Below, piece by piece: positions 32,098 to 41,454 of a stretch of 64,000 nt of DNA. The stretch's first letter is position 1, and every line of letters starts with the position of its first letter. Below the pieces are notes generated by a model. The model was not told where the DNA came from and ran no database searches. It saw only the letters and a program-made list of their open reading frames with translations. A program made the position numbers and the translations under genes. Source of the DNA: Nitrospira sp. CR1.1 (lineage in GTDB: Bacteria; Nitrospirota; Nitrospiria; Nitrospirales; Nitrospiraceae); the NCBI GenBank assembly GCA_014055465.1, contig WIAF01000012.1, forward strand, positions 1-64,000, in the 5' to 3' direction.

Positions 32098-32850
32098 CTA
32101 CATAAACTTCATGAACTTCTCTTTGGCCTCGTCCATGACCTGAGCCGTGATCTCGACCAGGCCTCGCTCCTTGGCGATCCGCTCAATCTCCCGGCGCGCC
32201 ATGGGACGAATGAAGTCCGGGATATTATCCATCCGCTGCTCGGCATCCTTCGTCCACGCGATCCCGTTCGGGGAGTCGTTTTTGGAATCATCCATGACTT
32301 GAAGCGTGATGTTCTTGTACCCATGCTTGCGGGCATAGGCTTCAACGCTGCTCTGAACCATCGGCTTGACGAAGGACGGCAACCGCTCCAACTTTTCCTT
32401 GGCATCCGGCGTCCAGGTCAACTCGCTCGTGCCGTTGGGATTCGGCTTGCCGCCTGAGGTCAATCCCATCTCCGCGACCATCGCCGAGAACGGGCATCCG
32501 CCGGAGGTCTTCTCGCCACCAGCCGCCGGCGCACTGGCCTTTGGCGCTGCCACCGCGGGTTGACCACCCTGAATTTTCTCATTGAGATACGCTGCCATTT
32601 GCCCTGCGCCGGCCTGCGCTTCATCCTTGAGGGTCCCCCGAGTCATCTCGAACGGTTCTGCCGTTTCCGTGCGGCCTCCAAGCTTGACACCAAGGGACGC
32701 GACCATTTGTGTTTCGCCAGGATTGGTCACCATCGAAAACTTGGCCTCGCAGGATGGACAGCCGAAGAACACGCCGAGTGAGCCCTCACCGGGTTTTTCG
32801 ACCTTTTGAAACGTCATGTAGGTCTCGCAGTTCAGGCAAACGAACTTCAT
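32098..32850 (-). CDS. Zinc-ribbon protein with two PCP-reductase-like repeats
   Basis: A 250-residue protein in three parts. Residues 1-40 form a zinc ribbon with CLNC (5-8) and CPSC (31-34). A linker contains GGCPF. Two repeats at about 146-188 (WTPDAKEKLERLPSFVKPM) and 199-241 (WTKDAEQRMDNIPDFIRPM) match the PCP-reductase-type domain also seen at 16984. It lies directly downstream of mrp, so a link with Fe-S or cofactor handling is conceivable. No experimental function is known to me. Confidence 0.8.
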   Translation of the reverse strand: MKFVCLNCETYMTFQKVEKPGEGSLGVFFGCPSCEAKFSMVTNPGETQMVASLGVKLGGRTETAEPFEMTRGTLKDEAQAGAGQMAAYLNEKIQGGQPAVAAPKASAPAAGGEKTSGGCPFSAMVAEMGLTSGGKPNPNGTSELTWTPDAKEKLERLPSFVKPMVQSSVEAYARKHGYKNITLQVMDDSKNDSPNGIAWTKDAEQRMDNIPDFIRPMARREIERIAKERGLVEITAQVMDEAKEKFMKFM

Positions 32851-33880: not shown

Positions 33881-35728
33881 CTAGATGGAATATTGGATGG
33901 TGGACTTCGTGCCGGATGGTTGCATGAGCACCCCCCGCCGCTTCAACTCCTCCAGGATCTGACGGGCAGCAGCATCGAAATCCTGCGGACCCGCGAAGTG
34001 CAAATCGGTATTCGGTGGCGGTTCTTCCCCTGCCCTGCTCATGTGGACCGCTATCACCGGGGCCGGTTGAACCAGCGTCCGTATCATCTCCGCCATGCGC
34101 TGATAATTGATGCCGAATGTTTTACTGGTCGAGACGACAATCAGGCCTGTATCGATCAACAATCGGGCGACTTCGCCATATCGACGCACGCGTTCGGAGG
34201 CAAACGAGGGGTCGGCGGCAGATAAATCCGCGTCGAGTCCCTGCAGGAGGTTTTCACCCTCCAACAAATAGGCATGCCGGCTATCGGCCACGAGCAAGGC
34301 TTCAACCCGCCGTGCGAGGAACGTCTTGCCCGTTTGCGCCGAGCCGGTAAACAGTACAATAGCCGCGCGATGCCCATACTGCAGCGCCCGATCTTCTGAG
34401 CGGACATCGCCGGTCAGCCAGGCATATTCCCGCTGCCGCGCCTCTTCCCGCAATCCCTCCTGCTCGTCGTGCACCAATTCGGTGATGATCCCGCCGCCCG
34501 AAATGTCATACTCATCCACCAACACGAAGCGGCCTGTCGATTCGAACGAGGACGACAAGTCAAACGCAAGCGGCGATTTCACACGCAGGGTCAATTCGGC
34601 CACCTGATTTCGGGCTACGGATTGGCTCTCCTGCAGCTGCGCCAGGTCGGCAGTGTCGATGATGCGATGAATGACCGCCACCTCGCAGGCGGCTTCCCGC
34701 GTGGCCAGCCGCAGCATGTACTTCCGCCCTTTCTCAAGCGGCCGCCGGCCCATCCAGAATAAATTCACCCGGACCGCCGTGGAAACCAGCGGAACCGAGT
34801 CCCGATGCGACGCAATTTCTCCGCGCTCCACAAAAATCTGCTCGTCGAGCGTAATGCCGACCGATTGACCGGCCTGGGCCTCGCTCTGCGGCGGGTCGAC
34901 GTTAAAGCCTTCAATCGATTGCACCATCGCCGTTTTGTTCGAGGGGGAAAACACGAGCTGGTCGCCGACTTTCAAACGTCCCGCCGTGATACGTCCGGCC
35001 AAAATCCGCCGCGCATCGAACTTATAGACGTCCTGCAGCGGGAACCGGAGCGGCTGCTCTGTGCGGACCTGCTCTTTCTTGAAGAGCGCCAGCGTCTCCA
35101 GGACGGTGGGGCCCTGATACCAGTTCATATGGCTGCTGCGCGTGGCGATGTTGTCACCCATCTTCGCGCTGACCGGAATCATCTGTTGCGGCACCGCCCG
35201 GAACTGACCAAGAAACTCCCGATATTCCTTCTCGATGCCATCGAACACATCTTGTCGATAGCCGACCAGATCCATTTTATTGACGACGACCGCGAACTGT
35301 GTCACGCCCAGGAGAGACAGCAGATACCCGTGTTTCTTCGATTGTTCGCGCACCCCTTCCAAGGCATCGATCAGCAGGAGGGCGGCTTCAGCCCGGGCAG
35401 CTCCCGAAATCATGTTCTTCAGGAACTCCTTATGCCCCGGGGCGTCGATGATAATGTACTGGCGCCCGTTCCAGATAAAAAACGTGCGCGCCGTATCAAT
35501 CGTGATGCCTTGCTCCTGCTCTTCCAAAAACGCATCAAACAGGAACGCATACTCAAACTCTTTGCCCTGTTGCCGGCAAATGGCCTGCACCTTTTCCAAT
35601 TTGCCTTCCGGCAACGAACCGGTGTCGGCATACAGGCGGCCCACCAGCGTGGATTTCCCGTGATCGACGTGGCCCACAATGACGATGTTGAGGCTTTCTT
35701 GCGGCTTAGTCTGGTCGTGCTGTGTCAT
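33881..35728 (-). CDS. cysN: Sulfate adenylyltransferase large subunit fused to a diverged APS-kinase domain (CysN-CysC)
   Basis: A 615-residue protein. Residues 1-435 are the CysN GTPase with [17 protein letters not shown] and NKMD, plus translation-factor-like beta barrels; with CysD it makes APS from sulfate and ATP. Residues 440-600 match APS kinase CysC. Walker A is kept as GSAQTGKT, but the usual DGDN motif reads EGEN and the substrate-binding segment after GLIV is altered (STSKTFG). Because the operon's CysH looks like an APS reductase, PAPS may not be needed and this domain may be losing or changing activity. It is the last gene of the cys operon. Confidence 0.9.
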
Positions 35729-35805: not shown

Positions 35806-36603
35806 TTACATGTAGCCCTTCTTGCGAAGCATTTCCATGCCTCGCCCCGCATCCTGCGCGCGGCCGGCCCGTTCAGCCACATTGCTTTTGCGCAGTTCGA
35901 CAATAATTTCATCCACCGTTTTCGCCGTCGACTTGATAGGCATGGTACAGGGTGCGCAGCCGAGGCTGCGATAGCGTGTGCCATCCCCCCTGTCGAGGTA
36001 GAGATCCATGAAAGGAATGTTCTCGTGCTTGATGTATTCCCAGATATTGATCTCGGTCCAATCGAGAAGCGGATGAATCCGGATGTGCGTCCCCGGCGGG
36101 AAGGTGGTCTTGAACTGATCCCACAATTCAGGCGGCTGATCGCGAAAATCCCAATCACCATGCTTGTCACGCGGCGAAAAATAGCGCTCCTTTGCTCTGG
36201 TGCTGTCTTCGTCCGCACGAACACCGAGGATGATTCCGGTATAGCCCTTTTCCTCGACAAGATTCTTCATGGCATTCGTCTTCAAGGCCGTACAGCAGAC
36301 ATCCCGCCCTAACGTATGATTCATCCCCGCGGCCAGGGCTTCTTTATTCTGACCCACCACCAGATTGAGGCGCCATTCACGCGCAATCCGGTCACGGTAT
36401 TCGATCATCGCCGGGATTTTGTAACTCGTATCCACGTGCAGTAAGGGAAAGGGCACATGCCCGAAAAAGGCCTTGCGAGCCAGCCACAGCAGGACCGTCG
36501 AATCCTTCCCCATCGACCACAGCATGGCGAGGTGATTGAAGTGCTTGTAGGCTTCGCGAAGGATGTAGACGCTTTGGTCTTCAAGTTGACGCAAATGTTT
36601 CAT
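35806..36603 (-). CDS. cysD: Sulfate adenylyltransferase subunit 2
   Basis: A 265-residue PP-loop adenylyltransferase that forms APS from sulfate. The PP-loop is SMGKDSTV, with [16 protein letters not shown] and [13 protein letters not shown] further on and the C-terminal [12 protein letters not shown]. The length is a little below the usual 300 residues because the C-terminal tail is short. It is encoded 77 bases upstream of cysN, its obligatory partner. Confidence 0.95.
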
Positions 36604-36621
36604 GATTCACACTCGTGTATA

Positions 36622-37689
36622 TTAGGCGGAGAGGCCGATCTTCGACCCTGCTCCTGCTTCCGTCCCGACTCCTGCGATCAGCTCTGCTAATTTGGCCTTG
36701 GCCTGGCCGGACTCCAATGCGCTGCGAGCTGCCGCTAGATTTCCGGTGATCGACGTCCCCTTGCCGGCCGCATAGAGCAACATGGCTGCATTCAGCAACA
36801 CCCAGTCTCGTTGCCCACCCTGAATCTCGTTCGCGACTAACCGCTTGATCAAATCGGCTTCCCGCTCACGCTGCTCCGCCGGGAACCCTGCCATTTCGCG
36901 GAATGTCGCCATGGCCAGCCCGGCGTCTTTGGGCTGAAAGGTGAAGGGTGTGATGCGTTCGTCTTTGAGTTCCAGGAGACGGGTTGAGTTGCCGATGGAA
37001 AGCTCCGGATCGCCTTCGACACCGCGGATCACCAGTGCGCGCGGACAACTGAGCATACGCAACGCTTCGACCGTCTTTTCAAAATAGGGCGGATGCGAGA
37101 GCCCGATCACCTGGGAGCGGGCACGAGCAGGATTGAGCATTCTCGCCACCGGGTGGAAGAAATTACGCACGCCCAATTCCTGCCGCATTTCGAGGAACCG
37201 GCTCACCGGCGGGTGGTACAGCGCCAAATCCAGATAGGCCAATCCCTTCCTTTCCAGTTCAGGCCCGACGAGCTTGGCGGTCTGATCGGTAGGAATACCC
37301 AGGAGCTTCAGTACTGCCGAGACGCCCCACCGATCGGCAGGTCCATCCACGCCATGAAGCAACACCACCGCGCCAGCCGCCGCCGCAATAATCGCGGCGG
37401 GAACAATCGCGTGAAATGTTTCCCGCTTTCCCCCATACACCGGCACGTCCACCACTCCGAGTCCGGAACGGACCGGGACCGGCGGAACATACTGCCTGGC
37501 AGTGGCGGTGAACGCGGCCAACTCCGTGACCGACTCGGACTTGAAACGCATGGCCGTTAAAAACGCGCCGATCTGAGCCTGCGTGGCGGTCCCTTCGATC
37601 ATCAGGCGCATGGCCTGTTTGGCTTCTTCCCACGTGAGATCTTTAGACGTCTTTTGACCTTTGGCGACTTTGGCGAGCAGATGTTGCAT
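36622..37689 (-). CDS. Anthranilate phosphoribosyltransferase-like protein (TrpD2/YbiB-like)
   Basis: A 355-residue protein of the glycosyltransferase family 3 fold. It has the N-terminal helical domain (LTWEEAKQAMRLMIEG, AQIGAFLTAMRFKSES) and a catalytic-domain-like core. The PRPP-binding glycine motif of true TrpD (KHGN/GTGGD) is replaced by VPVYGGKRETFH and LLHGVDG, so tryptophan synthesis is unlikely. This divergence matches TrpD2/YbiB-like proteins, some of which bind nucleic acid. It sits between cysH and cysD, which implies a role with sulfur metabolism that is not defined. Confidence 0.75.
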   Translation of the reverse strand: MQHLLAKVAKGQKTSKDLTWEEAKQAMRLMIEGTATQAQIGAFLTAMRFKSESVTELAAFTATARQYVPPVPVRSGLGVVDVPVYGGKRETFHAIVPAAIIAAAAGAVVLLHGVDGPADRWGVSAVLKLLGIPTDQTAKLVGPELERKGLAYLDLALYHPPVSRFLEMRQELGVRNFFHPVARMLNPARARSQVIGLSHPPYFEKTVEALRMLSCPRALVIRGVEGDPELSIGNSTRLLELKDERITPFTFQPKDAGLAMATFREMAGFPAEQREREADLIKRLVANEIQGGQRDWVLLNAAMLLYAAGKGTSITGNLAAARSALESGQAKAKLAELIAGVGTEAGAGSKIGLSA

Positions 37690-37731: not shown

Positions 37732-38454
37732 TTATTTGTGCAGTCCGCATTCGGTCTTGCCGAAATTTTTCCACCGACCGGAACGCGGATCGTCTCCCGG
37801 AAGGACAGGCGCGGTGCAATGCGTGCAACCGATGCTGGGATAGTTGCGGTCGTGCAATGTGTTGTACGGCACCTCATGGAGTTGGAGGTACGTCCACACC
37901 TGCTCACTACTCCACTTGGCCAGGGGATTCACTTTGACAAGGTTGAACTTCTTATCCCACTCGATCAGCCCCGCATTGGCCCTGGTCAGGGCCTGATCCC
38001 GCCTGATGCCGGTAATCCACGCCCTGTAACGCCCGAGAATGCGGGTCAATGGCTCGATTTTTCTCAGATCGCAGCACTGGTCAGGCTTGCTCGCCCAGAG
38101 GGCCGCCCCATGTTGGGCAGCCTGCTGCTCCGGCGTCAAGAGCGACTTCATCTGAATCACCTGCGCCGGTTTAAGTCCATATCGCGCGACAATGCGATCC
38201 CGCACATCGAACGTTTCCGGGAACAGAAAATCGGTATCGAGGTAGAAGAGCGGCGCTTCCGGATCGATCCGATGCACCATATCGACCAGCGCCACATCTT
38301 CAGCCCCGAAACTGCACGCCAACACAATCCGTTGCTGATACGTCTTCAAGGCGTACGCCAGCACGTCCCAGGGCTGCTTGTCTTCAAACGAATCGCTGAG
38401 GGCCTTCAGTTCTGCGCCGGAGGGTCGTTCAGCGGGCTGCTGTGTTTCGTTCAC
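37732..38454 (-). CDS. cysH: Assimilatory adenylylsulfate (APS) reductase
   Basis: A 240-residue member of the PAPS/APS reductase family that reduces the sulfonucleotide to sulfite with thioredoxin. The substrate loop is SFGAED (48-53). Four cysteines for a [4Fe-4S] cluster are present: Cys127-Cys128 (CCDLRK), Cys210 and Cys213 (CTHC). The catalytic Cys236 lies in ECGLH near the end. The cluster cysteines mark the APS-using class as opposed to the E. coli PAPS type. It starts at GTG 38454, five bases after the sulfite reductase gene. Confidence 0.95.
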   Translation of the reverse strand: MNETQQPAERPSGAELKALSDSFEDKQPWDVLAYALKTYQQRIVLACSFGAEDVALVDMVHRIDPEAPLFYLDTDFLFPETFDVRDRIVARYGLKPAQVIQMKSLLTPEQQAAQHGAALWASKPDQCCDLRKIEPLTRILGRYRAWITGIRRDQALTRANAGLIEWDKKFNLVKVNPLAKWSSEQVWTYLQLHEVPYNTLHDRNYPSIGCTHCTAPVLPGDDPRSGRWKNFGKTECGLHK

Positions 38455-38459
38455 CCTTC

Positions 38460-40952
38460 TTACCCCTCGACTTTTTCCACAAGAATCTTGAAATGTTTGG
38501 CTTCTGGCTCCAACGGCCCTTCTGTCAGGATCTTGTGGCCGTCATTGCGCAAGCTCATCGGCACGTTCCGTATGGGTTCCCCGGCATCCAGCCAGACTTC
38601 GAGCTGCTCGCCATTGTCCATCATCTCCAATTTCAATTTCGTCTTCACGTAGTTCATCGGGCAGGCCACGCCGCGCAGGTCGTACACAGACGCCTGAGCC
38701 GCGGCAACTGGTGCGGGTGCGGCAGGAACCGCAGGAACCGCAGGAGCCGCAGTCGGCACGGCTTCTTCCTTCACCTGGGCTAACTTTAGATCTTTCCCCA
38801 TCTGCTCGGTGGCAGCCCGGCAGACCGAGAGAAACCGCTTGGCGAAGGCCATTTTTTCATTCGCGGCCTCGGCCGTCGCATCCTTTGATCCCAAATCGCC
38901 GACTTGCGCGCCAAGATTCTGATACGTCGCCGGCACGATGCCTTTGCTCGCCAAACGCACGTCGAATTCCTGAAATGTCTCGGCATCGGTCGCCGGATCG
39001 ATCCCTTCGGTCACCAGCAGCCCCTTGGCCGCCGCCAGCACGGCACGGTACGATTTGTTCACCGAGAGAGCGTATTGATGTTTCTCCACGAGCAATTTTG
39101 CTTGATAGAGTTCCTGATCGGCCTCCAACATGCGGTCGTCGATCATCTCCAAGGCTCCGCCTGCGCACTCGCCGGGACCTAAATCCTCCAACACAAATTC
39201 CGCTTCGCCTTCCCAATCGTAATAGTAGGTCGGATCCTGATCATGCGGCGGAACGATCGTATACGAAATGAGTTCGTCCTTCAGGACGTTTTTTCCGACC
39301 CGCCCGATGAATGCCTGCAAACTTTCACCGGACTTCCGGTCCCGGCGATACACGTCGACCAGATGGCGCACCGCCGCCGGAACACTCTTCGCCGGCAACT
39401 TCACCACGAGTTGCCCGATCTTCGGCGTGCCGTCTACATGGCCCCCCAGGTGCAGTTCATAGTGAGGCGCGGTGTGTTCGCCGAGACGCTTGCCGACTCC
39501 GTGGAGCCCGATGGTCGCAATATGATGCTGGGCACAGGAATTATGGCAGCCGCTGATTTTGACGCTGACATCTCGCAGATCTTCCGGCACCTGACCGGCA
39601 GGAAAGACTTCAGCCAACGCACGAGCCATGCCCTTTGACGAAGTGATCCCCAAGCCGCATGTATCCGTGCCGGGGCAAGCAATGATGTCCTCGACAAGCT
39701 CGGCGCCGGGATCGCCCAGGCTGTGCCCCACGAGTTCCTCATAAAATGCGCTCAGCCGTTCCTCTTGAATCCACCGGATCATCACGTTCTGATTGATAGT
39801 GGTGCGGATATTTCCATTGGAGTATCGTTCGGCCAGGTCGGCCACCGCCCACATTTGCTCGCCGGTCAGATCGCCCATCGGCAGTTTGATCGCCGCCGCG
39901 GCAAATCCTGGCTGCCGTTGAGGCACGACATTGGTCCGCTTCCACGCTTCAAAGGCCGACTCGGCTCCGTTGCGCGATGCGGCGCCGTTCCCGTTTCCGT
40001 TGGTGCTGCTCGGCGCTTTCGTCGGCATCAACAACGGCGGCGTATCGGCGTACTCCAGCAACGTGATCGGTTCATGTGTCGGCACCGCATACCCCATGGC
40101 CGCATAGGCCGCTTCCCACCGGCGCTTGAACTCGTCAAACCCGAGCTTCTCGATAACGAACTTCATGCGGGCCTTATTCCGATTCTTGCGGTTCCCCAAC
40201 GTATCAAACACTTTAATCACCGCTTCGATGGTCGGCAGCAATTCGTCCATCGGCGTAAATTCCCGGAGCACTTGAGCCATGCGCGGGGTCGATCCCAAGC
40301 CACCGCCGGCCACCATCCGGAACCCGATGGTTCCATCCGCCCGCTTCGCCGCCAGCAAGCCGATGTCGTGAATAGGCGTGAGCGCGCAATCCTGCCGGCA
40401 GCCTGAGAGCGCGATCTTAAACTTTCGCGGAAGGCTCTGATTGAGCGGATTGCGAAGGAGATGATAGGCCACCGTTTTCGCATAGGGCGTCACATCAAAC
40501 ACCTCGCCCTGGCACACCCCGGCCAAATGGCAGGCCGTCACATTGCGCACCGTGTTGGCGCAGGCTTCGCGAGTCGTCAGCCCAACGGAGGCGAGCTGAC
40601 GCATCATTTCGGGGACATGCTTGAGCTCCACGAAATGCAGCTGAATGTCCTGGCGTGTCGTCACATGCCCCACACCGGTGGCGAACTGGTCGGCCAGTTC
40701 GGCGACTCGCCGCAACTGATTGGCCGTCAGTCCGCCGAACGGAATTTTGATCCGGACCATCTGCACGCCCGGCTGCCGTTGGCCGTAAATGCCATACTGC
40801 AGCCGGAAAGGCTTGAAAATGTCGGTCGAGAGATCGCCGGCCAGCACACGTTGGGTTTCAGCCTCGAACGTCTCGATTTCTTCGACAATATGGGCGGGGA
40901 TGGGCTCGTTCTTCACTGTGGGACGCAGAGCTTCTGTGTGACTACCTATCAT
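38460..40952 (-). CDS. Sulfite/nitrite reductase with C-terminal HEPN-like and TusA-like domains
   Basis: An 830-residue protein. Residues 1-600 are a ferredoxin-type sulfite/nitrite reductase with two pseudo-symmetric halves that reduces sulfite to sulfide using sirohaem and [4Fe-4S]. The canonical set in the second half is Cys426, Cys432, Cys469 and Cys473. The first half also has a full set: Cys141, Cys147, Cys185 and Cys189. Residues 605-720 form a helical HEPN-like domain. After an Ala/Pro linker (730-755), residues 757-830 are TusA-like with the sulfur-carrier Cys764 in GVACPMN. The cys-operon context favours sulfite as substrate. The fusion suggests that sulfide or sulfane sulfur is passed on. 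Confidence 0.88.
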   Translation of the reverse strand: MIGSHTEALRPTVKNEPIPAHIVEEIETFEAETQRVLAGDLSTDIFKPFRLQYGIYGQRQPGVQMVRIKIPFGGLTANQLRRVAELADQFATGVGHVTTRQDIQLHFVELKHVPEMMRQLASVGLTTREACANTVRNVTACHLAGVCQGEVFDVTPYAKTVAYHLLRNPLNQSLPRKFKIALSGCRQDCALTPIHDIGLLAAKRADGTIGFRMVAGGGLGSTPRMAQVLREFTPMDELLPTIEAVIKVFDTLGNRKNRNKARMKFVIEKLGFDEFKRRWEAAYAAMGYAVPTHEPITLLEYADTPPLLMPTKAPSSTNGNGNGAASRNGAESAFEAWKRTNVVPQRQPGFAAAAIKLPMGDLTGEQMWAVADLAERYSNGNIRTTINQNVMIRWIQEERLSAFYEELVGHSLGDPGAELVEDIIACPGTDTCGLGITSSKGMARALAEVFPAGQVPEDLRDVSVKISGCHNSCAQHHIATIGLHGVGKRLGEHTAPHYELHLGGHVDGTPKIGQLVVKLPAKSVPAAVRHLVDVYRRDRKSGESLQAFIGRVGKNVLKDELISYTIVPPHDQDPTYYYDWEGEAEFVLEDLGPGECAGGALEMIDDRMLEADQELYQAKLLVEKHQYALSVNKSYRAVLAAAKGLLVTEGIDPATDAETFQEFDVRLASKGIVPATYQNLGAQVGDLGSKDATAEAANEKMAFAKRFLSVCRAATEQMGKDLKLAQVKEEAVPTAAPAVPAVPAAPAPVAAAQASVYDLRGVACPMNYVKTKLKLEMMDNGEQLEVWLDAGEPIRNVPMSLRNDGHKILTEGPLEPEAKHFKILVEKVEG

Positions 40953-41001: not shown

Positions 41002-41454
41002 TCAAATGTGATACATCAAGGTATGTTGCGCGTCGAGGGCCCGCTGACGTTTCGCCAGCTCCTCGACCGTCACTTCGGATAACACACTCAATTCCGCCCG
41101 TTTCACACGATCCCAGATATGCGCGAGGAGGGCCTCTTGCTTCGCCCCTCGCGACGATGACGGTTTCGGGGCGGCATCTCCATTCGTCGTGAGAAGCGGG
41201 CCTTCTAAGGCATCGAGAATATCGGCCACAGAAAGCTCCGAGGGCTTTCGACTCAACACATACCCACCCTGGGCTCCACGCTGACTCGTCACGACTCCCG
41301 CTTTCTTCATCGCATGAAGCACCTGCTCCAGAAAGCGAGCCGGGATGGCCTGGCGCTTGGCAATCGACTTTGCGCACACCGGGTGCTCGGCATGGTGGAG
41401 CGCAAGGTCCACGGCAGCAATGATCCCATAGGTGGCTCTCAGGCTGACCTTCAT
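41002..41454 (-). CDS. Rrf2-family transcriptional regulator (CymR-like)
   Basis: A 150-residue Rrf2 protein with an N-terminal winged helix (MKVSLRATYGIIAAVDLALH, then RFLEQVLHAMKKAGVVTSQRGAQGGY). The three cysteines that hold an Fe-S cluster in IscR are absent (only Cys28 is present), so it resembles CymR, which senses sulfur status through partner proteins. It is the first gene of the sulfate assimilation operon, 49 bases before the sulfite reductase, and probably controls that operon. Confidence 0.9.
   Translation of the reverse strand: MKVSLRATYGIIAAVDLALHHAEHPVCAKSIAKRQAIPARFLEQVLHAMKKAGVVTSQRGAQGGYVLSRKPSELSVADILDALEGPLLTTNGDAAPKPSSSRGAKQEALLAHIWDRVKRAELSVLSEVTVEELAKRQRALDAQHTLMYHI

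Follow-up and report, generated by a model that had tools for sequence, protein, structure and literature searches.

The 64,000-nucleotide stretch of Nitrospira sp. CR1.1 DNA analysed here (the window) encodes an 830-residue sulfite reductase (SiR) of the assimilatory type, in which a two-half reductase core is fused to a HEPN-fold domain and a TusA-like domain and both halves of the core carry a complete set of cluster-type cysteines. Our preferred interpretation, to which we assign a probability of about 0.6, is that this SiR-HEPN-TusA protein has one catalytic sirohaem-[4Fe-4S] centre and a second, sirohaem-free [4Fe-4S] cluster in its first half, and that the TusA-like domain, presented by the HEPN domain, probably takes up some of the product sulfur. 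The enzyme is near-universal in Nitrospirales, which are major nitrifiers; in the genome collection the nearest relative of the window protein is 96% identical and the SiR of N. moscoviensis about 76%. A literature search that was thin on subscription journals returned no paper on a SiR-TusA or SiR-HEPN fusion and none that deals with the sulfite reductase of sulfate assimilation in Nitrospira.

Gene, operon and substrate

The gene (38460..40952, on the minus strand, as are all features with coordinates in this form below) is an open reading frame with an ATG start, assigned by Pfam and fold matching. Pfam finds two NIR_SIR_ferr and two NIR_SIR domains in the single chain, i.e., a two-half repeat. 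Half 1 comprises a NIR_SIR_ferr domain (residues 56-122, 40587..40787) with R67 and R100, both invariant in alignment A1, and a NIR_SIR domain (residues 132-280, 40113..40559) with R136, K177, K179 and the first cysteine set. The NIR_SIR domain of half 2 (39264..39689), the predicted binder of the catalytic [4Fe-4S] cluster, scores 46.9 bits, above the cut-off. An AlphaFold model was built from a 50-sequence alignment of close relatives and fold matching was run on its domains. Mean pLDDT was 65 and pTM 0.42, with values below 50 in the cysteine loops, including residues 141-152. The closest solved folds for the core (residues 24-558) were NirA of Mycobacterium tuberculosis (Mtb; 1zj8, Z 19.8), maize SiR and plant nitrite reductase (NiR).

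Directly upstream of the SiR gene lies an Rrf2-family regulator (CymR/IscR-like, 41002..41454). Downstream follow CysH, an APS/PAPS reductase (37732..38454), a TrpD-like glycosyltransferase (36622..37689), the sulfate adenylyltransferase small subunit CysD (35806..36603) and CysN with a C-terminal APS-kinase-like domain (33881..35728), all identified by domain or profile matches and synteny. Five bp separate the SiR stop from the CysH start, and this same-strand arrangement is conserved in Nitrospirales; the TrpD-like glycosyltransferase is kept within the sulfate-assimilation operon throughout the order. In other Nitrospirota, SiR lies inside an Rrf2-AprA-AprB-SiR-Sat operon (L137 2900-8840, L139 3747-9517, L129 3542-9457), where sulfate activation genes of the dissimilatory type supply a sulfite reductase of the assimilatory type. 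Since both CysH/CysDN and AprA-AprB-Sat make sulfite one step earlier, these neighbours point to sulfite as the substrate of SiR. Elsewhere in the window (32098-32850), near an Mrp/NBP35-type Fe-S carrier, this genome of a non-phototroph encodes a protein with two PCP_red domains, which correspond to the C-terminal part of protochlorophyllide reductase subunit B.

The profile scores could be taken to indicate an enzyme that is mainly an assimilatory nitrite reductase, as NirA-type profiles outscore CysI (290 versus 130 bits). However, every such score lies below its curated cut-off: 290 versus 523 bits for the PRK09567 NirA model, and 129.9 bits for the NCBIfam equivalogs CysI and sir, with cut-offs of 756.6 and 731.5 bits, respectively. 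Furthermore, the operon context is sulfate assimilation across the phylum, and the genome encodes a separate NirA-like protein (L156). Nitrite reduction as the main role is barely credible on these grounds and was rejected. A profile search of the Nitrospira genome gave no match to CysJ above the cut-off, which makes ferredoxin the likely electron donor.

Two cysteine sets and one set of sirohaem anchors

The initial annotation placed complete cysteine sets in both halves, and the alignments locate them at exactly those residues. The first half has C141 and C147 in a CX5C motif (CHLAGVC, 40512..40532) and C185 and C189 in a CX3C motif (CRQDC, 40386..40400); the second half has C426 and C432 (CPGTDTC, 39657..39677) and C469 and C473 (CHNSC, 39534..39548); and C764 is in the TusA-like domain. 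In a half-versus-half alignment, the four cysteines of the first half share columns with those of the second half and with the CX5C...CX3C cysteines of DsrA. When the first-half segment (residues 128-200) was compared with the PDB, the best match was the F420-dependent sulfite reductase (Fsr) of M. jannaschii (7np8, E 7e-6), and all four cysteines fell on the CX5C...CX3C cysteines of that protein. In Fsr, the prototypical half, the cluster coupled to sirohaem is ligated by a CX5CXnCX3C motif (PMC10229431). This agreement with the cluster ligands of Fsr and DsrA makes a second Fe-S cluster plausible, and we consider its presence in half 1 likely from the sequences.

The question whether a second cluster would come with a second sirohaem can be addressed through the residues that hold this cofactor. 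In half 1, R67, R100, R136, K177 and K179 are invariant and align with R83, R117, R153, K215 and K217 of E. coli CysI, which we take to be the residue numbers of the sulfite ligands in that enzyme. Half-1 Arg and Lys residues for sulfite and sirohaem binding, combined with CX5C...CX3C in half 2, are the hallmarks of a fused assimilatory SiR. In addition, the EAC cysteine of Mtb NirA, which forms a cross-link with a tyrosine next to the sirohaem, has its counterpart in C131 (40560-40562); both Y56 and C131 are invariant here. In these enzymes sirohaem owes its anchoring chiefly to positively charged residues in one half, with the cluster contributed by the other (PMC10229431). In half 2, the counterparts of the five anchors are A354, N387, E421, D461 and S463. 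With the anchors complete in half 1 and gone in half 2, the protein is predicted to bind one sirohaem, which half 1 would hold and which would be coupled to the cluster of half 2; the cluster at the half-1 cysteines would then lack sirohaem.

The initial annotation allowed for two Fe-S clusters or two sirohaems per chain; the anchor residues leave the second cluster standing but make a second sirohaem unlikely. A chain with two complete sirohaem-[4Fe-4S] centres, one catalytic and one with a structural sirohaem, would be a single-chain counterpart of DsrAB. It would account for the completeness of both cysteine sets, and DsrAB and Fsr dimers do possess two sirohaems, located about 9.4 Å apart in the Fsr dimer (PMC10229431). 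We nevertheless regard it as very improbable, as half 2 has none of the five cationic anchors, whereas DsrB mostly keeps them (R, R, S, K/R and R in these columns, four of five basic). Half 2 instead resembles that of E. coli CysI (T, N, E, H and V), where no second sirohaem is bound. At the spacing seen in the Fsr dimer, a bare half-1 cluster could be near enough to the catalytic sirohaem for electron transfer.

The preferred arrangement of two clusters and one sirohaem differs from what is described for assimilatory sulfite reductases. On the accepted account, they arose when a half-size enzyme was duplicated and fused, and afterwards lost one sirohaem-[4Fe-4S] site, so that one half is without the cluster motif (PMC10229431). 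In the window protein and most of its relatives, the expected loss of the half-1 motif is not seen, and with both motifs intact SiR-HEPN-TusA departs from the rule. The query and 109 Nitrospirales sequences share all 12 cysteines without variation, except that one sequence is gapped at C185/C189. Among Nitrospirota relatives at 42-60% identity, most have the full first-half set, down to 42-45%. Invariance within the order and persistence at such identities argue that the set is not there by chance.

Exceptions show how the set varies. Three sequences of one family (L129, L130, L168) keep C141 and C185 but have Ser for C147 and His for C189, and two of one genus (L152, L153) have a one-residue insertion that gives CX4C with all four cysteines still present. 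The Nitrospira NirA-like protein has three of the four first-half cysteines. A search of plasmid-record proteins beyond the phylum gave Thermus (43.5%) and Persicobacteraceae as best matches and the full first-half set in none: SiR of Thermus oshimai has two of four (C141 and C185, with Ser and His at the other positions), and the Persicobacteraceae and alphaproteobacterial enzymes have none. The half-1 positions of E. coli CysI do not form a cluster set either. A deep tree had good support within clades and an unresolved backbone where long branches meet. Because the half-1 segment resembles Fsr, retention of the full set from an ancestor appears to be a simpler reading than its reacquisition.

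The same pattern can be read as that of a relic, in which an enzyme with one cluster and one sirohaem keeps half-1 cysteines that no longer ligate Fe-S, for folding, for zinc or by inheritance. C141 and C185 indeed linger in incomplete sets, namely in the Nitrospira NirA-like protein, in Thermus and in the L147 group, and the AlphaFold model, with pLDDT below 50 in this region, gives no support for a formed half-1 site. The L147 group (L147 3008-6298, L148, L149, L150 and L161) consists of proteins of about 1090 residues that combine a pyridine-nucleotide flavoprotein and a BFD [2Fe-2S] domain with a complete two-half sulfite/nitrite reductase, i.e., a NirB-like layout with two halves. A relic should decay, however, whereas the four cysteines are invariant in Nitrospirales and intact in most clades at identities where more than half of the surroundings have changed; L152 and L153 even keep them around an insertion. 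We therefore find the relic reading arguable but doubtful.

In the preferred reading, half 1 keeps the ancestral CX5C...CX3C site, which most likely would hold a second [4Fe-4S] cluster and serve either as an electron relay or structurally. The L129, L130 and L168 proteins and the Thermus enzyme, which have only C141 and C185, still look functional, which suggests that the basic reaction can proceed without such a cluster.

HEPN domain, TusA-like domain and C596

Fusion to HEPN-like and TusA-like domains, as proposed in the initial annotation, was borne out by a domain search, in which both exceed the Pfam cut-off (HEPN marginally), and by structure matching of both folds. The Pfam match to HEPN (residues 607-655) scores 24.7 bits with a cut-off of 22, which is weak by sequence; the four-helix domain as a whole (residues 598-719, 38796..39161) matches the HEPN protein AF0298 (2hsb; Z 15.6, 119 residues aligned) and 4nqf (Z 14.0). 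The R-x4-6-H motif of HEPN RNases is absent from the query segment when read by eye, and any match to it occurs in only 11 of 139 relatives. A nuclease role was rejected on the absence of this catalytic motif from the query. The four-helix bundle may instead be a spacer or docking domain that presents the TusA-like domain.

The TusA-like domain (residues 757-827, 38472..38684) is well above its Pfam cut-off (55.7 versus 28.6 bits), and residues 750-829 match E. coli TusA (Z 11.7) and YeeD (Z 11.7-12.3 for the two). C764 (38661..38663) aligns as the TusA-type carrier cysteine. It is located in a CPMN motif instead of the canonical CPxP, and CPxN is found across the whole family. The genome contains two more TusA-family genes, of which one, a free paralogue (L189, G000 C6 about 84800), is of the CPxN type like the fused domain. 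In five genomes of another lineage (L143-L146, L159), a TusA-like protein is encoded by a separate ORF directly beside SiR. A fused TusA in one lineage and a neighbouring one in another together make a good case that SiR and TusA are functionally linked. One further chain (L132 3556-6243) has SiR-HEPN followed by two TusA domains. A sulfur relay through C764, as the initial annotation suggested, is possible, and this cysteine would probably take part of the product sulfur.

Another conserved cysteine, C596 (39165..39167), lies in a GPGECAGG motif between the SiR core and the HEPN domain. The motif is invariant in all 110 Nitrospirales sequences, and all of the diverse relatives with this tail that were inspected have it too. 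SiR of Thermus oshimai ends right after a motif of this type (...LGRGECA), and in the Persicobacteraceae (Bacteroidota) enzymes the GEC motif precedes a HEPN-like tail. Its presence in the tail-less Thermus enzyme and in Persicobacteraceae indicates that the motif is older than the TusA fusion. C596 recalls the near-terminal conserved cysteine of DsrC, a protein that was not found in the Nitrospira genome, and as a lead it may be a candidate sulfur acceptor. We rate as rather improbable the more elaborate scheme in which the two-cluster chain hands over sulfane sulfur in cis, from sirohaem to C596, then to C764 and finally to the synthesis of cysteine or Fe-S clusters, without release of free sulfide.

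Relation to known sulfite reductases and significance

E. coli CysI, Mtb SirA/NirA and the plant SiR and NiR enzymes share with the Nitrospira protein the fused two-half fold, the half-1 anchors and the half-2 cluster cysteines in register. They have lost the half-1 cluster motif that is complete in Nitrospira SiR, and the GEC motif, HEPN domain and TusA-like domain of the latter are extras. Fsr has in common with the first half the four cluster cysteines, a KFKIA(L/I)SGC motif and HDIG; it differs in being a single dimerising half with an F420H2 oxidase and a ferredoxin insert, both of which are absent here. DsrAB likewise consists of two halves that each have a cluster site. However, its halves are separate subunits with ferredoxin inserts, while Pfam finds no ferredoxin domain in Nitrospira SiR, and DsrB anchors a structural sirohaem with residues that Nitrospira half 2 has lost. 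The dsrA and dsrB models score far below their cut-offs (43.6 versus 392.9 and 87.4 versus 341.5 bits).

The HEPN-tailed nitrite/sulfite reductases of Persicobacteraceae resemble the Nitrospira enzyme in their SiR core, GECAG motif and C-terminal HEPN-like region, but they have neither the first-half cysteines nor TusA. The TusA and YeeD carriers share the fold and the position of the carrier cysteine with the fused domain, which differs from them in its CPxN motif and in being joined to a reductase. Taken as a whole, the protein is proposed to be a single-chain, two-half assimilatory sulfite reductase of Nitrospira that is probably ferredoxin-dependent, with its catalytic sirohaem held by R67, R100, R136, K177 and K179 and coupled to the [4Fe-4S] cluster at C426, C432, C469 and C473.

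To judge from the sequences, both cluster motifs appear to have been kept in the fused chain when the anchors of the second sirohaem were already lost. Nitrospira SiR may thus preserve an intermediate stage of sulfite reductase evolution and could reveal the order of events, and it offers a one-gene system for probing what the extra cluster does. Assimilatory sulfite reductases have been reported to yield zero-valent sulfur first, not sulfide (PMC13188885). Such a product would suit a fused carrier, and the fusion or adjacency of SiR and TusA makes the claim testable. If real, the cis relay would correspond, inside a single molecule, to the trisulfide system of DsrAB and DsrC, in an organism that has no DsrC.
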